Shown piece by piece: positions 3,001-46,092 of a stretch of DNA of 46,265 nucleotides. The translations under genes and the position numbers were made by a program. Position 1 is the stretch's first letter. Each line of letters begins with the position of its first letter. The stretch is from Hylemonella gracilis ATCC 19624 (GTDB taxonomy: Bacteria; Pseudomonadota; Gammaproteobacteria; Burkholderiales; Burkholderiaceae_C). The stretch lies in assembly GCF_000211835.1 (NCBI RefSeq), contig NZ_AEGR01000054.1, positions 1 to 46,265 of the forward strand. Direction: 5' to 3'. The notes beneath the pieces are model-generated. The model was not told the origin of the DNA and searched no databases. It saw only the letters and a program-made list of their open reading frames with translations.

Positions 3001-5581
3001 CATGCACATTAAGTGTCATATCCCCACCAGACAAGATTCGACCTTGAGGGCTGTCGACCGCCACGACGTGATTGGTAACAGTCTCTGTATAACTACGTAA
3101 ACCGCTGCGATAGTCATCCGTCACATCAAGCTCAATATCGTTGTACTGTCTCACCGTAACAACTGCGCTAACCTCAAACACCTCCCGCTCGTTGCGCAGC
3201 GTCCCCGCCTCAATCCGCAAATTCCCCTCCGCCTCGATCGTGGCTGAGGCATTGCGCAAGGTCTCCGTCACCCGGATGTCCGCATCCCCCAAAGCCAGCA
3301 GCACCGCGCCCGAGGTGTTGTTCAGGTTGCGCGCCTGCAGCGTCATGTCCTGCGCGACCAGCGCGCCCTTGTTCTCCAGGGTGCCGCCCGTGGTGAGCTG
3401 CAACGCACCTTCCGCGAACATCAGGCCGTCCTTGGTATTGCTGACGGAGCCCGCCGTGACCGTGATGTCCGTCGCCTGAACGCCGCCTGCGTTCGTGAGC
3501 AGGCCCGTGGCCGTGAGGTTCAGTTGCTCATCGGCCAGCAGCACGGCGTTCGCGCTGTTGGTGAGGGTCACGGCGCTCAGGCTGGCGTTGCGCCCGCCGA
3601 TCAGGCCGGTGTTGTTCAGTGCCTGATGGCCCTGCACGGTGAGTTGGCCGTCGATGGCCTGCATCAACCCGTTCTGGTTGATGTCGCCTTGCGCCGTCAG
3701 GCTCAGGTTCTGGCTGGCCGTGACGGCGCCTTGGTTGCTGACCGCACCGGCGCTGTTGATTTGCAAGTCCCTGTCCGCATAGACCAGGGCATTGGCAGCG
3801 TTGCTGATTGAGCCCGCCGTGATGTTGGCGTTGTTGGCCTGCACATTGCCTTCGTTGTTGAGCGCACCGGCGGTGGTGAGGCTCAGCGTGTCCTCGGCCA
3901 GCAAGGTGGCTGCGCTGCTGTTGTGCACGCTGGCGGCCGTCGCAACGACATTGCGGCCGCCGGTCGTGCCGGTGTTGTCCAGCGCAGCGTCGGTGTGCAG
4001 CGTCAGCGTTCCTTCGTTGGCCTGCGTCGTACCGGCCAAGGTGAGTGCGCCTGTCGCGCTCAGGCTCAGGTTCTGCACGGCCGCGATCTGGCCTTCGTTG
4101 ACCAGGGTGCCCGCGCTGCTGATGCTCAGCGCCTGATCCCCCGCCACGGTGCCGCTGGCCGCGTTGTTGAATTGGCCCGCCGTCACCGTGGCACTGCCCG
4201 CTTGCACCCGGCCCGCGTTCGCGAACTGCTGGGCCGTGGTGATGGCCAACGCCTGCTGTGCCAGCAGCACGGCGTTCGCCGCGTTGTCGACGGAGGCTGC
4301 ATTGATGTTGGCATTTCCCGCCTGCACGCGGCCTGCGTTGCTCAGGGCCTGCGAGCTTGTGATGTCCAGTTGCTGGCTGGTAGCGATCAGACCGGTCTGG
4401 GCATTGCGCAGGGTCTCGGCCTGGATGCGCGCGTTCGCGGCTTGCACCTGCCCCGCGTTGTCCAACTGCCGCGCGGCGCTGAGGTCCAAGCGCTGTTCGG
4501 CCGCAAGCACGGCGCTGGCGGCGTTTTGAATGGCATCGGCGGAGACGTTGACGTTCTTGCCGCTGACCGTGCCGGTGTTGTCCAGCACATCGCGGGTCTG
4601 GATCGTCAGTTGCCCTTGCGTGGCCTGCACCAGACCGGAATGGGTGATGCGCCCATCCGCCGCGAGCGTGAAGTCTTTGTCCGCGATCATCTGGCCCTGG
4701 CTGTTGACACCAAAGCCTTTTTCCGTGCCCACGATGCGGATCACATTGGCGTACATGCCGCCGATGGCCGCCACGTCCAGCGCCACGCCCGTGGTGTTGG
4801 AGTCTCCCCCCGCCAAGGGGGTCGCCGCCAGCGTGGCGTGGTCCACCACATTGCGTCCCGTCACCAGGTTGAGCTGCTGAGCCCAGAGCTGCCCGTTGAT
4901 GCGGATGGTGCGGGAGAGCAGGTCCAGCTGGTCCACGTTGGAGGCATTCAGGCCCTGGCCTTCGATGGCGATCTGCCCGCCATCGACCCGGAACCCCGTG
5001 AGGCCGCCGTTGGCACCGAACTGCGCCGTGCCCGTGGTCAGCGTGCTGCGCGAGGTGTTGATGAAACCGCAGCCATTGCAGCTGATGCCGTTGGGGTTGG
5101 CCAGGATGAACTCGGCACGCTGGCCCGCGATCTCGGTGTAGCCGCGCAAGGCGCTGGGGTTGGCGCTGGTGACTTCGTTGAGGATGATGCGCGCGGCCTG
5201 GCCCTTGAGCGCCGCGTTGCCGTCGATGTAGCCCGCCAACTGCGTCTGGGTGATGGCCGTGCTGTTGTTCAGGATCAAGCCCTTGGGGCCGACGTTGAAC
5301 TGGTTGTACTGGTTGCGCGACACCCCATCCTTGCTGGCCTGGTTGATGTTGACCACCGTGGTGTTGTTCTGGCTCTGGGTGATCTGCGGCGCGTGCGGGC
5401 TGTTCGCGGCAGCCTCCACGCCCGCCGCCTGCGCCAGCACCACACCCGGATAGCACAGGTAGGACAGCAGCACGCCCGCCGCGATGCGCTTGCGCTGCGC
5501 CGCGGTGAAGCCGAGGCGGCGGTCCTGCCCCGCCTCATTGCGACGATCCATGTGCCGGTCTTGCTTCAACCCTTGCTGCAT
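1..5581 (-). CDS. TpsA: FHA/CdiA-like two-partner-secretion exoprotein (C-terminus outside window)
   Basis: The minus strand stays open from 5581 to the window edge, about 1860 residues without a stop. Order seen: an extended, basic signal region ending VVLA/QA near residue 50; a TPS domain with NPNGI at about 162-166 followed by the CNGC and GFINTSR motifs, which the transporter recognises; many ~20-residue beta-helix repeats; an AT-richer stretch (about 2740-3170); a conserved block with YLVETDPR and KRLGDG (residues ~1000-1050); then a second repeat array (LNVAGGL, AGGNLTIKAGGNLL) and an Ala/Lys/Glu-rich helical segment at the edge. This layout is that of contact-dependent inhibition or adhesion proteins; whether a toxin tip exists cannot be seen. 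ATG 5581 is preferred because AAGGGGA precedes it; an in-frame ATG at 5599 has no such site. It follows its transporter by 26 bp. Confidence 0.93.
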   Translation of the reverse strand, partial: MQQGLKQDRHMDRRNEAGQDRRLGFTAAQRKRIAAGVLLSYLCYPGVVLAQAAGVEAAANSPHAPQITQSQNNTTVVNINQASKDGVSRNQYNQFNVGPKGLILNNSTAITQTQLAGYIDGNAALKGQAARIILNEVTSANPSALRGYTEIAGQRAEFILANPNGISCNGCGFINTSRSTLTTGTAQFGANGGLTGFRVDGGQIAIEGQGLNASNVDQLDLLSRTIRINGQLWAQQLNLVTGRNVVDHATLAATPLAGGDSNTTGVALDVAAIGGMYANVIRIVGTEKGFGVNSQGQMIADKDFTLAADGRITHSGLVQATQGQLTIQTRDVLDNTGTVSGKNVNVSADAIQNAASAVLAAEQRLDLSAARQLDNAGQVQAANARIQAETLRNAQTGLIATSQQLDITSSQALSNAGRVQAGNANINAASVDNAANAVLLAQQALAITTAQQFANAGRVQAGSATVTAGQFNNAASGTVAGDQALSISSAGTLVNEGQIAAVQNLSLSATGALTLAGTTQANEGTLTLHTDAALDNTGTTGGRNVVATAASVHNSSAATLLAEDTLSLTTAGALNNEGNVQANNANITAGSISNAANALVYADRDLQINSAGAVSNQGAVTASQNLSLTAQGDINQNGLMQAIDGQLTVQGHQALNNTGLIGGRNASLSAVTLTNSANAVLLADEQLNLTATGLLTNAGGVQATDITVTAGSVSNTKDGLMFAEGALQLTTGGTLENKGALVAQDMTLQARNLNNTSGAVLLALGDADIRVTETLRNASATIEAEGNLRIEAGTLRNEREVFEVSAVVTVRQYNDIELDVTDDYRSGLRSYTETVTNHVVAVDSPQGRILSGGDMTLNVHDTLDNVYSTISAGNDLFVKAKSPRNQDYTVDNTTVHDGQDILTGFLRVCGRDGANDNFFWCTPQYTFDYDKTSKTTVRLASSTFSANRNLTGEFVELKNGSPVDALAQSQAAAHQGPDRDATLPDLILGQDGYQLPSSALVKPSNSPNHPYLVETDPRLTSYKTFISSDYILDKLDYDFAETPKRLGDGFVEQRLVRDQLLSQTGFQYLDGYDNLEKQYVGLMENALEQTQALSLSPGVALTPQQIAQLQEPIVWMVLESFETAFGVQTALVPKVYLGHNDNIVLRSDGSLLASGGSMSLNVAGGLSNSGTIQSGDALSIETGGDLYNLSGAITAQGGLGLKVGGDLVVETVVDALLVGQQATISGGSVSMDVAGDARFTGASLEAEEGLSVQVGGDLRSENTSFNAGGDMTLAAQGNVMLVAVAQTTQTSSGGRTTTETEHLTNQLQAGGNLTIKAGGNLLSEGTSFQADGDMALSARGNVTLAAVTNESQTLGRRYEQSSTTVVGNELDAGGNLSIRSGGDLVSTASTVQAGDTLSLAADGDVLLLAATERDYSYEKTTSTSGGTFNKKKTTKTSTEETLSNVGNTLSGENIQIQSGGLLHIHASTLDAEQDITLQAENIALTAGIDQEYERDTKVTKSTFKVKSQDKGSMEQTAVATELNAANIKVLATGNVQITASNLNAEETLAIGDVAVQQQADGSFVAVNGEGTPENLIVDTLALKSESWNEKSEGYRGVAADLMKGFAVAAGALAQTLDMKAPEIKLGESSSQKTTTVTQQSSTLNAGEQLVLAAQNNVMLIGAEVSTEGTAILSAANVTLEAAAETSTSETSHSEHTIGGVGGKLNKDEVSLGGMKEVKTTETTTTTSTTHKGTTLNVGNLAVLATQDVNIVASKVDVDGQAIVQAGGSVNITGKQDTTSTETRKEVETTTTTVGVRNAYMDTAMAVKAAKEAVEAAAKAEEAYDEAKKRVDSGELAKAALKDYETNRNMAVAAATQAPMA

Positions 5582-5607: not shown

Positions 5608-7272
5608 TCAGATGTGCCATGTCAGTGCGAAGCCTCCCGTCAGGCCTTCGTCCTTGAATGAATCCGGCGCGTGCAAGCCATGCGCCACGAAAGCTTCGTA
5701 TTGAATCGGTCCCTGCCGACCGCGCCACCCCACGGCGCCACCGGCCAGCCAGCGGCCGTCGTAAGACTCGGTGCCCAGGCCGGAGACGCCGCCCACATCG
5801 ATGGCCACGAAGACGTCCTGCCCGCGCCACCAGGTGTGGCCCAGCTCATTGCGGCTGAGCCAGCCGCGTTGCCCGCCCAGGCTGTTTTCCCCGCCATAGC
5901 CCCGCACCGTTTGCCGCCCCCCCACACTGAACCAATCCAGGCTGTAGAGCGGTGTGTTGCTCCACTGCACCCGGTTCTGCGACGACAGCCAGACCGGCTG
6001 GCGCATCGAGGGAAAAGACTGATTGAGGCCAACGGACGCCTGCACCAGGCTGTACGTGGGGCCCGGCGCATCGGGGCCGTCCAGGCCGGACTCGGCGTCG
6101 AAGATGCGCAGGCCCTGCTTGCCGGTGAGCGACAGGTTCAGGCTGCCGGTATCCAGGTAGTGGCGATGGCGCACGCCCAACTGCAGCTGCGAGAGACGCC
6201 GCTGCTGCACCATGATCTCCGAGTCTTCGATGTAGCTGTGGCGGCGGCGCACGCCCAGGCCCGCGAACAGATCGGTCTTGAGCCGGTTGTCGCGCTGCAC
6301 GGTGCGGGTGGCGTCGAGCTGAACGTCATGGCCATCCCCGCTGCTCATGAATTCGAGCACGTCGCCTTCCACCTGCTGGTGGTAGCTGAACTTGTTGTAG
6401 CTGGCCTCGATCAGCCAGTAGCCCCAGGGCAGGCCGTAGTAGACGTTGTGGCTGCGGGTGCCTTGCTGGGCGTCGTAGTCGGAAGAGCGGTTCAAACCGA
6501 TCTGGATCTGGTCCTGCAGACCCAGCGGGTTGTCCCAGCCCGCCTGGGCGGACCACTGGTTCTTGCCCGTGGCATCACCGCCGCTGTCGTCCAGCGTCAC
6601 GCTCAAGCTCCAGGGCCGCGTGGTGGTGACGGACACCTCCACGTCGCTGTAGCCCTCGTTCTCCGAGGGCTTGATTTGCATCTGCACGTCCTGCGAGGCC
6701 AGACGCTTCATTTGCTCCAGACCTTGCTCCAGGTCACGCAGGTTGAGCACATCCCCCTTGCGCGCGGGAAAGGCGGTGCGCCAACTGCCCCGGTAGTCCT
6801 GGGGCAGACGGATCTGGTTCAGATAGCCGGGAAAGAAATGCAGTACCAAGGTGCCGCTCTTGAGGTCTTGCTCGGGAAAGGCCAGGCGGGAGGTGACGTA
6901 ACCGCGCGCGAGCAGGCTGCCATTGAGGCTCTTCAGCAGCTGCGCCAGGCCTTGCTGGCCCAGGCAACGGCCTTGCCATGCACTCACTTCGTCTTGCAGC
7001 CAGCCAAAACCCGAGGGCATGTCACCTTCCAAGCGGATGTGGTCAAGCTGAAAGCAGAAGTCTTCGGCCGGTGCCGTCGCGTCGGGCGAAGCCTCGGGCG
7101 AGGGCAGCTCAAAACGGAAATCCGGCCGCTGCTCGCGGCGCTGCTGTTCCTGCGTCTCGCGCTGCTGGCGGCGCAGCCATTCGTCTTGAATGACCGCATC
7201 CACCGGCTGAGCCATCACGCCCCCGCATCCCCATGCGAATGCAACGGTCAGTGCCAAACGTCCTTTTTTCAC
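5608..7272 (-). CDS. TpsB/ShlB-type outer-membrane transporter (FhaC/CdiB family)
   Basis: Predicted 554 residues, the usual size for the family. It secretes the adjacent TpsA across the outer membrane. A signal peptide (MKKGRLALTVAF... ending VMA/QPV) is followed by a Gln/Arg-rich N-terminal helix region, two POTRA domains (about residues 60-210, with the segment FCFQLDHIRLEG opening the first) and a 16-strand-type barrel carrying the family hallmark VRGYGGENSLGGQRG near residue 450. The C-terminus is Trp-His-Ile rather than the usual terminal Phe. The start is GTG 7272 with GGTGAGG just upstream; the reading frame continues upstream to 7470 but that part is cysteine-rich and unlike any TpsB N-terminus. 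Order transporter then exoprotein, same strand, argues for one transcript. Confidence 0.93.
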   Translation of the reverse strand: MKKGRLALTVAFAWGCGGVMAQPVDAVIQDEWLRRQQRETQEQQRREQRPDFRFELPSPEASPDATAPAEDFCFQLDHIRLEGDMPSGFGWLQDEVSAWQGRCLGQQGLAQLLKSLNGSLLARGYVTSRLAFPEQDLKSGTLVLHFFPGYLNQIRLPQDYRGSWRTAFPARKGDVLNLRDLEQGLEQMKRLASQDVQMQIKPSENEGYSDVEVSVTTTRPWSLSVTLDDSGGDATGKNQWSAQAGWDNPLGLQDQIQIGLNRSSDYDAQQGTRSHNVYYGLPWGYWLIEASYNKFSYHQQVEGDVLEFMSSGDGHDVQLDATRTVQRDNRLKTDLFAGLGVRRRHSYIEDSEIMVQQRRLSQLQLGVRHRHYLDTGSLNLSLTGKQGLRIFDAESGLDGPDAPGPTYSLVQASVGLNQSFPSMRQPVWLSSQNRVQWSNTPLYSLDWFSVGGRQTVRGYGGENSLGGQRGWLSRNELGHTWWRGQDVFVAIDVGGVSGLGTESYDGRWLAGGAVGWRGRQGPIQYEAFVAHGLHAPDSFKDEGLTGGFALTWHI

Positions 7273-7636
7273 GCGCCTCACCACGCCTTCCGCTGTTCCC
7301 GACTCTTGGCACGGCCTGCAAGTCCTCAGTCGGAGATTGCAAACGCACGCGCCAAGGCTGACCTTTTTGTTGGCGCAAGGAACACCGCAGACAGGGAAGG
7401 AGGTTTTGGGCGCGCAAGTCGCGCACCCCATGCAGACAGAGGATGGCGCCAGCACCGGCGCTTTCATCACTGTCTGGCAACCCCGCTGTCGTGTCGTCTG
7501 GACGTAGACCGGTAGCTTTGCGACCCTGGCTTTCGCGCAGGTGTGCCTTGCCTCATGAATGAGAACTGATCTTAACTAGCTCTGATCAGCAAACGCGGGA
7601 GTGCAGATTTTGAAAGGTAACGAGCCGTTTCCAACG
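7273..7636. other. Non-coding gap upstream of tpsB
   Basis: A 364-bp stretch between the stop of the metallopeptidase gene and the tpsB start, presumably holding the tpsBA promoter. I see no clear -35/-10 pair. The sequence CTGATCAG at 7582-7589, itself palindromic, together with CTGATC at 7566-7571 forms a spaced repeat and could be a regulator site. An open frame (to 7470) in front of tpsB is rich in cysteine and is judged non-coding. Confidence 0.4.
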
Positions 7637-40732: not shown

Positions 40733-43152
<2,420 letters not shown>

Positions 43153-43176
43153 TTCGCGCTTGCGCTTCCCCACGAC

Positions 43177-43198
43177 AAGGCCCTCATCGAGGGCCTTT
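43177..43198 (+). terminator. Rho-independent-type terminator of the 56-aa gene
   Basis: AAGGCCCTC (43177-43185) pairs perfectly with GAGGGCCTT (43189-43197) around a 3-base loop and is followed by a short T stretch. It lies 25 bases after the stop. Confidence 0.75.
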
Positions 43199-43296
43199 CG
43201 CATTTCTGGGCCGTTCGCGTTCACTTGGGGTTCAAGCCGGGCCGGCTGAGCGCCGCCCGTCGACCTCAGGGCTCAATACAGGCCTCAGTGAAGGCC

Positions 43297-44289
43297 TCAA
43301 TACGCCTTGAAGTTCGCCGCGACCCGCTGCTTCAGATAGTCACCCGCGCTGATGGCCGGGTACTTGCGCGCCGGCCCTTCGATCAGGGCCGAGCGGTTGG
43401 CCTGGGCGAAGAAAGCCAGGCTGTAGCGCGGCCCCATGTACTCGCCCGGTTGCGGGTTGCGCACGCGGTGGAAGTTGCTGGGCAGGCGATCATCGCTCCA
43501 GCGCATCAGCATGTCGCCGATGTTGCAGGTGATCGCATCACCGTCGGGCGGGATCGGTGTCCAGGCCTGAGCGTCCATCTCCTTGCCAGGGCAGACTTCC
43601 AGCCCGCCCTGTCCCTGGCGCTGGTAAAGCAAGGTGAGGCAGTCGAAGTCGGTGTGCGCGCCCGCGCGCCACAAGTCCAACTTGTCCTGCACCTCGGGCG
43701 GGATGGCGTAGTAATGCAGCAGGCGCAGTGTGCTCTGGTAGTCCGCGTGCTCGGGATCGTGGGCGCGCGTGAAGAAATCATCGGCAAACCCCAGCTTGTG
43801 CGCGAAGCAGGACAACACCTGCATGCCCACCCCCCAGCTCTTGCGCTCAAAGGCCAGCATGGTCGCCTGGAAGCCCGGCAGCTCGGCCTCGGTCGGCCAG
43901 AGGTCGGCCATGTGCGGTCGGGTGATCTGGTAGCTCTCCTTCTGGTCCGGCGTGCCAGTGGAAGGCCGCACCTGGGCGCGGCTTTCCCAACCGACATTGA
44001 GTGCCTTCTTGTGCGGGTACTGCTGCTTCACCGACTCGGGCAGGGCGAAGAAGCGCTCGGCCATGGCAAAGGCGGCCTGAATCTCTTGCGGGCGGATGCC
44101 GTGGTTGACGAGCTGGAAGAAGCCCACGTCGACCGCCGCGTCCCAGAGCTGGTCGGCGATCTCGGCCTTGCGGGCTTCGAAGTTGGAGAGGTCGATGCGG
44201 CGGATCTCGCGCGCGGTGTCGAGCGTGCCCATCGCGCCCATGCGCGATTCTTTTTGCAGCTCGGTGAGGTCGTAGGCGGGTGCGGTCAT
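43297..44289 (-). CDS. 2-oxoglutarate/Fe(II)-dependent oxygenase, isopenicillin-N-synthase family
   Basis: 330 residues. N-terminal DIOX_N segment (residues ~30-110, with VGFFQLVNHGI) and the C-terminal double-stranded beta-helix with the iron ligands His and Asp in GAHTDFDCLTLLYQ and His in NFHRVRNP, and the 2-oxoglutarate-binding RYS in GPRYSLAFFAQ. It should hydroxylate or demethylate a small molecule. The neighbouring purine-type genes and the shared leader RNA suggest a purine (xanthine-like) substrate, by inference. ATG 44289 follows AGGAGA; the open frame upstream runs through the leader RNA and is not translated. Confidence 0.88.
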   Translation of the reverse strand: MTAPAYDLTELQKESRMGAMGTLDTAREIRRIDLSNFEARKAEIADQLWDAAVDVGFFQLVNHGIRPQEIQAAFAMAERFFALPESVKQQYPHKKALNVGWESRAQVRPSTGTPDQKESYQITRPHMADLWPTEAELPGFQATMLAFERKSWGVGMQVLSCFAHKLGFADDFFTRAHDPEHADYQSTLRLLHYYAIPPEVQDKLDLWRAGAHTDFDCLTLLYQRQGQGGLEVCPGKEMDAQAWTPIPPDGDAITCNIGDMLMRWSDDRLPSNFHRVRNPQPGEYMGPRYSLAFFAQANRSALIEGPARKYPAISAGDYLKQRVAANFKAY

Positions 44290-44315
44290 GCAGATCTCCT
44301 GAAAGTTGAACTTCA

Positions 44316-44364
44316 AGAGCAATTTCCGGGCGCTGGCTGGGCCTGCGCTGAACGCTTCTACTCC
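44316..44364 (-). promoter_or_regulatory. NMT1-motif (xanthine-I) riboswitch candidate, copy upstream of the oxygenase
   Basis: Read on the minus strand, an identical 48-base copy of the plus-strand element. P1 is GGAGU with GCUCU (two wobbles), P2 is GCGC-A-GGC/GCC-A-GCGC with loop CCA, and the junctions are AGAAGCGUUCA and CCGGAAAUU. After the aptamer, CUCUUGAA (44319-44312) can pair with UUCAGGAG (44303-44296), which is the Shine-Dalgarno of the oxygenase gene: 8 bp with one G-U, loop of 8. The P1 3' strand is thus shared between aptamer and SD-blocking hairpin. Confidence 0.72.
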
Positions 44365-44408
44365 TGCCTCACCACAAGCAAGGCGCGGGCCAGAACTGAC
44401 AACCTTGC

Positions 44409-44416
44409 TGTATACA
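44409..44416. promoter_or_regulatory. TGTATACA core palindrome
   Basis: An 8-bp palindrome in the AT-rich centre between the two leader copies, close to the symmetry axis of the larger palindrome (44406.5). It resembles GntR-family operators (GTATAC cores) and could also serve as overlapping divergent -10 boxes. No gene for a GntR regulator lies in the window. Confidence 0.35.
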
Positions 44417-44448
44417 CAATTGGCACATGCCTTGCTTGAAGACCCCCA

Positions 44449-44499
44449 AGAGTAGAAGCGTTCAGCGCAGGCCCAGCCAGCGCCCGGAAATTGCTCTGG
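44449..44499 (+). promoter_or_regulatory. NMT1-motif (xanthine-I) riboswitch candidate, copy upstream of the NMT1-type binding protein
   Basis: Helix P1: AGAGU (44449-44453) with GCUCU (44493-44497). 5' junction AGAAGCGUUCA (44454-44464). P2: GCGC-A-GGC (44465-44472), loop CCA, GCC-A-GCGC (44476-44483). 3' junction CCGGAAAUU (44484-44492). From memory, this two-helix fold of about 46 bases and its conserved junctions match the NMT1 motif, a xanthine/urate riboswitch named for genes of the NMT1 family, and here it precedes just such a gene. No database model was run. Confidence 0.75.
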
Positions 44500-44544
44500 A
44501 AACCCGGTCCCAGCGACCGGGCACTCAACCTCTTCCAGGAGCAA
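44491..44544 (+). promoter_or_regulatory. Expression platform: anti-SD pairing and inner hairpin before the binding-protein gene
   Basis: UUGCUCUGG (44491-44499), which includes the P1 3' strand, is complementary to CCAGGAGCAA (44535-44544) with one bulged G; AGGAG there (44537-44541) is the ribosome site of the gene at 44549. The loop between is closed by a hairpin CCCGGTC (44503-44509) with GACCGGG (44515-44521). Aptamer P1 and this SD-blocking pairing exclude each other, so ligand binding would be expected to open the ribosome site. Confidence 0.6.
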
Positions 44545-44548
44545 TGCC

Positions 44549-45583
44549 ATGCTGCGCCGCCATTTCCTCGGTACGTCCACCGCCCTCGCCGCATCCACCC
44601 TCGCCGCGCCGGCGGTCTGGGCCCAGTCCTCCCCCAAGCTCACGCCCCTGAAGTTCACGCTGGACTTTCGCGTCACCGGACAGACGGCCCCCTTCTTCCT
44701 GGCCCTCGCCCAAGGTTATTACCGTGACGAAGGGCTGGACGTGTCCATCGACGTGGGCGCCGGATCAGTGACCTCCATCACGCGCGTGGCCAGCGGCGTC
44801 TACCAATTGGGCCTGGGGGATATCTCCTCGCTGATCGAGTTCCAGGCCCAGAACCCCGGCACGCCCGTGGTGCAGGCCGTCTACCAGTACTACAACCGCG
44901 CACCATTCGTGATTATCGGACGCAAGGACCGTGGCATCACCAGCGACTTCCAGAGCCTCAAGGGCAAACGCATCGCCGCCGCGGCCGTCGAGTCCACGCG
45001 CCGTGCCTGGCCCATGGTCGCCAACAAGCTCAAGCTGGGCGCCGAGCACTTCCAGTGGGTCACGACCGACTTTAGCGCGCGCGACAACGTGATGGTGCGC
45101 GGCGACGTGGACGGCGCCACCTATTTCCACGACTCGGCCGTGTCGCTCTTCGCGCGCATGAGTCCGCAAGAGCTGTCGGTGCTCAAGTACACCGAGGCCG
45201 GGGTCAACCTCTATGGCAACGCGGTGCTGGCCAGCCGCAAGCTGATCACCGAACAACCCGCCCTGGTCGCGGGCTTTCTGCGCGCGAGCAACCGCGCCCT
45301 GAAGGAGACGCTGGCCAATCCGGCGGCTGCCATCGCCGCCATCAAGCAGCGTGAGCCCATCCTGGAAGAACCGGTGGAGCTTGAACGCTGGCGCCTGACG
45401 GCCCAGTACGTCGCGTCGCCCGACGTGGCAAGCCATGGTCTGGGCGACGTGCGCAAGGCGCTGCTGGAAGAGCAAATTGCCCAGGTGGCGCAGGTCTTCG
45501 GCCTGCAAAACCGCCCAGGCGCCGACAGCGTGTTCGAGCGAGGCCTCTTGCCGGCCAGCGGCGAGCGCAGCTACAAGGCATGA
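44549..45583 (+). CDS. NMT1/SsuA-type ABC transporter substrate-binding protein
   Basis: 344 residues. N-terminal signal with a twin-arginine-like start (MLRRHFLGTSTALAAS, ending VWAQ). The mature protein has the NMT1/THI5-like pattern: FTLDFRVTGQTAPFFLALAQ, YYRDEGLDVSIDVGAGS and VYQLGLGDISSLIEFQ. Such proteins deliver thiamine precursors, sulfonates or purine-like compounds to ABC permeases. No permease or ATPase gene is in the window, so the partner is elsewhere. The gene overlaps the deaminase gene by four bases (ATGA). SD AGGAG at 44537. Confidence 0.9.
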   Translation: MLRRHFLGTSTALAASTLAAPAVWAQSSPKLTPLKFTLDFRVTGQTAPFFLALAQGYYRDEGLDVSIDVGAGSVTSITRVASGVYQLGLGDISSLIEFQAQNPGTPVVQAVYQYYNRAPFVIIGRKDRGITSDFQSLKGKRIAAAAVESTRRAWPMVANKLKLGAEHFQWVTTDFSARDNVMVRGDVDGATYFHDSAVSLFARMSPQELSVLKYTEAGVNLYGNAVLASRKLITEQPALVAGFLRASNRALKETLANPAAAIAAIKQREPILEEPVELERWRLTAQYVASPDVASHGLGDVRKALLEEQIAQVAQVFGLQNRPGADSVFERGLLPASGERSYKA

Positions 45584-46092
45584 GCATGAGCACGGAATTG
45601 CCCAAGGAAGTCACCCTGAACGAACGCGACAGCAGCTACCTGCGCCAGGCGATCACCTGGTCGGCCAACGGCCGTGCACGCGGCAACCGACCCTTTGGAG
45701 CGGTCATCGTGTCAGAGCAGGGCGAGGTCCTGGCCGAGGCCTGGTGCAACACCAGCGAAACCGGGGATTGCACCGGCCATGCCGAGACCAATGCGGTGCG
45801 CTTGGTTTCGCCGCTCGTGGACCGAGACACCCTGGCGCGCGCGACGCTCTACTCCTCGGCCGAGCCCTGCGTCATGTGCGCGGGCGCGATCTTCTGGTCC
45901 AACATCGGGCGCGTGGTCTACGGCATCGACGCGGTGCGGCTGCGGGTGTTTCGCGGTGAGCGTGCCGAGCAGCGCGACGCGGAGCTGTCTTGCCGGGATG
46001 TGTTCGCGTCATCGCCCCACCCCATCGAATGCATCGGACCGGCCTTGATCGAGCAGGCCAGCGCCCCTCATCAGGGCTTCTGGAAACGCTGA
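45580..46092 (+). CDS. Nucleoside/guanine deaminase (CDA superfamily)
   Basis: 170 residues. The zinc site is complete: HAE in CTGHAETNAVR and PCxxC in SAEPCVMCAGAI. Size and the sequence NRPFGAVIVSEQGEVLAE fit the group that contains bacterial guanine deaminase (guanine to xanthine), tRNA adenosine deaminase and cytosine deaminase. Overlap with the binding-protein gene and control by a xanthine-type leader favour guanine deaminase, by inference. A second in-frame ATG at 45586 is an alternative start. Confidence 0.85.
   Translation: MSMSTELPKEVTLNERDSSYLRQAITWSANGRARGNRPFGAVIVSEQGEVLAEAWCNTSETGDCTGHAETNAVRLVSPLVDRDTLARATLYSSAEPCVMCAGAIFWSNIGRVVYGIDAVRLRVFRGERAEQRDAELSCRDVFASSPHPIECIGPALIEQASAPHQGFWKR

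Follow-up and report, generated by a model that had tools for sequence, protein, structure and literature searches.

The closest described relative of the regulatory region studied here is the NMT1 motif (RF03054; PMC7373994), a class of xanthine riboswitches whose linked genes were inferred to act on purines (Yu & Breaker 2020, PMC7373994). The legend of Fig. 5 in that work describes adjacent opposing copies in Hydrogenophaga intermedia S1, and our Rfam search of the H. intermedia stretch labelled L122 found both of them, at 3016-3069 (minus strand) and 3173-3232 (plus strand). The window (the whole stretch of Hylemonella gracilis DNA analysed here, 46,265 nucleotides) shares with the published class its sequence, structure, gene types and likely translational control. 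It differs from the published examples in having identical arms, predicted sigma54 promoters and a predicted ON polarity; in the main text of PMC7373994 the word 'sigma' occurs only as a supplier name. Tandem riboswitches also place two aptamers close together, but both on one mRNA, whereas the window has one aptamer per mRNA, and a table in the review of such arrangements puts Xanthine-I among the classes not found in tandem (PMC9481103). In the family to which the window belongs, the divergent layout is ordinary for this class.

The window also resembles the sigma54/NtrC promoters of nitrogen control, with GG at -24, GC at -12 and a 10-bp spacing. It departs from them in that its transcripts are predicted to begin with a metabolite-sensing aptamer, and in that no enhancer-like site lies between its two promoters. 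The coupling to sigma54 and the conversion of one arm by the other, both described below, did not appear in the literature searched: neither the titles and abstract openings listed nor the passages found by word searches in main texts (PMC7373994, PMC8266621, PMC9481103, PMC12316311, PMC3616915) connect xanthine riboswitches with sigma54 or with conversion between gene copies. These are the two points at which our account goes beyond an earlier sequence-only reading of the locus.

A mirror-image pair of xanthine aptamers between putative purine genes

The locus consists of two divergent transcription units, each with an aptamer in its 5' leader, since the end of P1 lies 26 and 51 nt from the start codon in the two leaders.

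43297..44289, minus strand: 2OG-Fe(II) dioxygenase gene, isopenicillin N synthase-like (Pfam DIOX_N/2OG-FeII_Oxy)
44312..44368, minus strand: xanthine (NMT1) riboswitch aptamer, dioxygenase side (RF03054, 54.3 bits, E 1.9e-9)
44316..44363, minus strand: left arm of the exact 48-bp inverted repeat, also the largest possible conversion tract (sequence)
44445..44501, plus strand: xanthine (NMT1) riboswitch aptamer, substrate-binding protein (SBP) side (RF03054, 56.4 bits, E 5.1e-10)
44450..44497, plus strand: right arm of the exact 48-bp inverted repeat (sequence)
44549..45583, plus strand: NMT1/THI5-like SBP gene (PF09084, E 4e-32)
45580..46092, plus strand: deaminase gene, cytidine/deoxycytidylate deaminase family (PF00383, E 1.2e-20; ORF list)

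The sequence-only reading had recognised a perfect 48-bp inverted repeat, assigned both copies to the NMT1 motif and placed an NMT1-type gene behind one of them. All of this is confirmed: the arms are exact, both strands match the Rfam covariance model well above its gathering score of 36 bits, and the gene on the right encodes a Pfam NMT1 SBP. The conserved core elements GAGUAGAAGCGUUCAGC and GCCCGGAAAUUGCUC are present in both arms and match the crystallised Ideonella RNA construct (PMC8266621). The exact repeat is nested within a longer imperfect repeat, whose 81-nt arms are 85% complementary and stand 28 nt apart. It is the only exact inverted repeat of at least 20 bp in the window, since the 29 20-mers that have an exact inverted copy further along are precisely the yield of a single 48-bp repeat (48-20+1).

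The deaminase, of the 'tadA' type in the naming of Yu & Breaker (PMC7373994), overlaps the SBP stop codon by 4 nt. Among solved proteins, the nearest by sequence to the dioxygenase is thymine dioxygenase, which makes a nucleobase substrate plausible.

The divergent layout is common in the family

The mirror-image arrangement had been regarded as unusual, a view that we reject: a divergent pair occurs in 43 of the 74 RF03054-positive genomes of the family sample, and one example is already in print (PMC7373994). The family sample comprised 399 genomes, 74 with RF03054 matches (73 above the cut-off); adding one extra genus member gives a survey set of 44 pairs and 129 aptamers (5 below the Rfam cut-off) in 76 genomes. 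Within the genus, 4 of 26 genomes have matches and 3 of these 4 have a divergent pair. The genes facing each other are SBP and 2OG dioxygenase in 35 pairs, SBP and Rieske oxygenase in 8, and deaminase and dioxygenase in 1. These 44 divergent pairs are the only cases in the survey list where two aptamers lie less than 1 kb apart. Ten genomes outside the family in an order sample of 399 had matches (6 above the cut-off), none with a close pair of aptamers, and a class sample of 369 genomes added only two positive genomes, both below the cut-off; surveys of more than 40 genomes used stricter filters, by which weak matches can be lost. Among the matches listed, pairs are also found in Parazoarcus, Azoarcus and Pseudomonas dryadis, which we take to lie outside the window's family.

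Predicted sigma54 promoters precede the aptamers at a fixed distance

Between the aptamers lie two predicted promoters directed away from each other, which the sequence-only reading had missed, as it had the predicted pairing of P1 with the ribosome binding sites described further on.

44420..44436, plus strand: predicted sigma54 promoter (-24/-12) of the SBP operon, TTGGCACATGCCTTGCT (GG-N10-GC, 12/13 consensus letters)
44377..44393, minus strand: predicted sigma54 promoter (-24/-12) of the dioxygenase gene, CTGGCCCGCGCCTTGCT (GG-N10-GC, 12/13 consensus letters)
44394..44419, no strand: 26-bp spacer between the two predicted promoters (sequence)

By convention, sigma54 promoters have a C at -12 and a fixed distance from -12 to +1. 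Applied here, this distance would put the transcription starts near 44447 (SBP) and 44366 (dioxygenase), 2-3 nt before P1, so that each aptamer is predicted to begin where its promoter would start transcription.

The motif and its fixed spacing extend far beyond the window. GG-N10-GC lies 11-18 nt before the GAG of P1 in 116 of the 129 family aptamers, as against 8% in shuffles and a background of about 1.5% per offset, and is absent at this spacing from the other 13. With similar upstream regions removed, the count is 98 of 108. Under a looser test, which asked for a promoter score of 9 or more out of 12 at any place within 100 nt upstream, 115 of 129 xanthine aptamers scored positive, compared with 1 of 30 TPP aptamers (the best TPP locus per genome in 30 of the same genomes). 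The consensus of the 116 family sites, YTGGCACG-N4-YTGCW, is that of textbook sigma54 promoters, with GG at -24, GC at -12 and 10 bp between them. Among the matches listed for named GTDB species, GG-N10-GC occurs at 8-17 nt in 67/69 beta, 8/11 alpha, 5/18 gamma and 0/1 unplaced aptamers, a count made with no score limit and for which about 1.2% per offset, or some 12% over the ten offsets, is expected. This tally covers 99 of 100 aptamers (one is cut by a contig end). The matches listed comprise 119 stretches and 80 loci, and some of the species are also represented in the survey. The looser test gives, again among the matches listed, 68/69 beta, 7/10 alpha and 12/18 gamma. The class counts thus make the promoter motif a trait of beta and alpha members, in gamma partly absent or located elsewhere.

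Searches of the window's genome gave a single rpoN match and, above the cut-off, an ntrC match of full length; the activator would probably be NtrC under nitrogen limitation. A scan of 43001-46000 for GCAC-N5..9-GTGC revealed no site between the two promoters and a single GCAC-N7-GTGC, at 44859 inside the SBP gene. NtrC-like sites lie upstream of 28 of the 229 aptamers studied, a count made without a control. The density of GCAC-N7-GTGC (0.415/kb within 500 bp of aptamers, 0.041/kb beyond 1000 bp) was discarded as an activator signal because many matches fall in P2b hairpins or at one spot in SBP coding sequence, and it therefore allows no inference. In the H. intermedia stretch L122, an NtrC-like GCACCGCGGCGGTGC lies between the aptamers, about 64 nt upstream of the right one. 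The spacer in the window (44394-44419) contains GTATAC, kept in three aligned genus members, which is possibly an operator common to both promoters.

One arm carries the hairpin of the other

Perfect identity of the arms is peculiar to the window. Across the 44 pairs the median identity is 71%, the next most similar pair reaches 87%, and the window is the one pair at 100%. In an alignment to the genus members G002 and G003, the window's flanks, promoters and P1 are orthologous on both sides, and the P2b hairpin of its dioxygenase-side aptamer stands apart. The closing pair of that hairpin is C-G in G002, G003 and G022, and is the SBP-type G-C in the window, whose dioxygenase-side aptamer carries the SBP-side hairpin.

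44330..44348, minus strand: dioxygenase-side P2b hairpin, now of SBP-side sequence; the smallest converted stretch (alignment, signature count)

The combined SBP-type signature is present in 44 of 54 SBP-side aptamers and in 1 of 42 on the dioxygenase side, this one being the window; elsewhere it occurs in 1 of 28 Rieske-side aptamers (G092), in the single deaminase-side aptamer and in 0 of 4 others. Replacement of one hairpin by the other between flanks that remain orthologous is the mark of gene conversion. As judged from the alignment, the simplest reading would be that the SBP-side aptamer overwrote the dioxygenase-side one along a tract of between 19 bp (P2b) and 48 bp. The identity of the arms had previously been attributed to recent duplication or gene conversion; the window-only identity supports the latter, and recent duplication is ruled out because the divergent pair is present in two more genus members and in 41 other genomes of the family. 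The palindrome had also been proposed as something to look for in relatives: the divergent pair is indeed widespread there, and the identical arms are confined to 1 of the 44 pairs.

At locus L046 (G092, Burkholderiaceae), the arms are 87% identical and the Rieske-side aptamer is the only one of 28 with the SBP-type signature; this makes it a candidate second case of conversion.

Folding predicts that ligand binding exposes the ribosome binding sites

In the predicted ligand-free folds of both leaders, the 3' strand of P1 is engaged with the region that the ribosome must bind.

44533..44545, plus strand: segment with the SBP ribosome binding site (44537-44541); pairs with the P1 3' strand in the predicted ligand-free fold (folding)
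44296..44300, minus strand: dioxygenase ribosome binding site; pairs with the P1 3' strand region in the predicted ligand-free fold (folding)

When P1 was enforced, the mean unpaired probability of the ribosome site rose from 0.16 to 0.61 in the left (dioxygenase) leader and from 0.11 to 0.40 in the right (SBP) leader. The right leader is somewhat more stable than its shuffles (z -2.03), and the left one is no more stable than its own (z -0.79).

The same calculation was applied to the 229 aptamers (129 from the survey, 100 from named species), of which 224 had a called start and 128 had leaders that passed the filters (at most 200 nt, a strong ribosome site, an ATG start unless gamma, no duplicates); start calls were automatic and some look wrong. 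Enforcing P1 raised accessibility by more than 0.1 in 77 leaders, lowered it by more than 0.1 in 2 and left 49 neutral. The mean rise was 0.16, against 0.08 with shuffled linkers; as shuffled linkers also rise, part of the effect is built into the likeness of ribosome sites to the P1 5' strand. Direct pairing between the P1 3' strand and the ribosome site exceeded that of the leader's own shuffles in 62 of 128 cases. Moreover, the P1 3' strand prefers its own leader to foreign leaders as a pairing partner (p 1e-7, n=101, after removal of similar leaders from 121); 20 of these cases rank in the top 5%, against an expectation of 5. The stretch beyond P1, taken alone, showed no significant preference for its own leader (p 0.17), and complementarity of this extension was dropped as support for ON switching. 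Accessibility rose in 25/30 Rieske, 14/25 dioxygenase, 30/60 SBP, 6/7 guanine-deaminase-like amidohydrolase, 2/2 deaminase and 0/4 other leaders. None of 8 alpha leaders rose and 1 fell; gamma leaders rose by 0.18, with a nearly equal control of 0.13. The SBP leader of the relative G002 was neutral upon P1 enforcement. On balance, we favour by a small measure the folding-based prediction that xanthine turns both window genes ON, a polarity contrary to the published OFF assignment.

Alternative readings

That assignment supports the most serious competitor, which we consider a substantial if lesser possibility: switches of the same anatomy that work in the OFF direction, with transcription under nitrogen limitation and translation shut by accumulating xanthine or urate, as product feedback. 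In the published experiment the H. intermedia leader was called OFF since the wild-type reporter lay below the non-binding mutant M4 in both rich and minimal medium (PMC7373994), and feedback would make sense if, as is plausible, the deaminase and the oxygenase produce xanthine or urate. However, the reporter compared the wild type with one mutant behind the E. coli thiC promoter, with no xanthine titration in the text consulted (PMC7373994), and closing P1 is predicted to increase accessibility in both window leaders and also in the H. intermedia leader itself (0.28 to 0.47). An unequal pair, with one arm ON and the other OFF or neutral, would fit the lower frequency of rises in SBP than in Rieske leaders and the fact that, of the 17 pairs for which both arms could be scored, 7 do not show a rise in each arm; yet both arms of the window rise, as do both in the remaining 10 of 17 pairs, which makes this arrangement improbable here.

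Two further alternatives concern the DNA, and we regard both as very unlikely. The perfect palindrome could be an assembly artefact, as the window's genome is a draft in 115 contigs. Nonetheless, the sequences flanking each arm, inside and outside, can be aligned with two relatives in unchanged order, and a switch of assembly path would presumably depend on overlaps of some 15 bp, which is as long as the cores common to diverged arms. The least probable of all is that the conserved GG-N10-GC boxes serve as something other than sigma54 promoters, given that their consensus, YTGGCACG-N4-YTGCW, is the sigma54 one and that their spacing places +1 at the 5' end of the aptamer.

A proposed two-key gate for purine scavenging

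Returning to the ON reading, the region between the two genes would control, in both directions, the uptake and oxidation of purines. Two sigma54 promoters, 26 bp apart, would fire away from each other, and each mRNA would open with a xanthine aptamer as its first nucleotides. In the ligand-free RNA the P1 3' strand would pair with the ribosome binding site, and xanthine would close P1 and free the site. Transcription would require the sigma54 RNA polymerase and an activator, probably responding to nitrogen limitation via NtrC, and translation would require xanthine; such a combination of promoter and aptamer amounts to an AND gate on both sides, by which we infer that the cell would respond to nitrogen limitation and xanthine together. 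The mirror identity would result from conversion of the dioxygenase-side aptamer by the SBP-side one. To this whole model (divergent sigma54 promoters, ON AND gates on both sides, gene conversion) we give a probability of about 0.55. Of its parts, the aptamers, the promoter motifs with their constant spacing and the conversion signature are visible in the sequence, the ON polarity comes from folding, and the activator, the transcription starts and the cellular response are proposed.

A broader proposal, which we put forward tentatively and hold to be less probable than the model for the window, is that in most betaproteobacteria and many alphaproteobacteria the xanthine riboswitch and the sigma54 promoter form one unit, an ON gate with two keys for purine scavenging, whose divergent copies can exchange sequence by conversion. 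If true, it would overturn the OFF assignment of the class and suggest its purpose. The predicted sigma54 promoter, present in almost every beta member sampled, points to a role in scavenging nitrogen. The fixed spacing of promoter, start site and aptamer would tie one riboswitch class to one sigma factor, and the coupling allows polarity to be tested directly in its native setting. The window itself would clearly illustrate how a regulatory RNA can undergo conversion between two inverted copies.

Other riboswitches

Divergent TPP riboswitch pairs were found in 2 of 30 genomes of relatives (G046:C2:393749-394068 and G156:C1:1667577-1667845, with gaps of about 90 and 51 nt; the minus-strand match of the G156 pair falls short of its cut-off), so the back-to-back arrangement may extend beyond the xanthine class. 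The window also contains a c-di-GMP-I riboswitch at 7473-7557 on the minus strand (60.2 bits), immediately preceding a gene (5608-7470, minus strand) for a two-partner secretion transporter of the ShlB/FhaC type.
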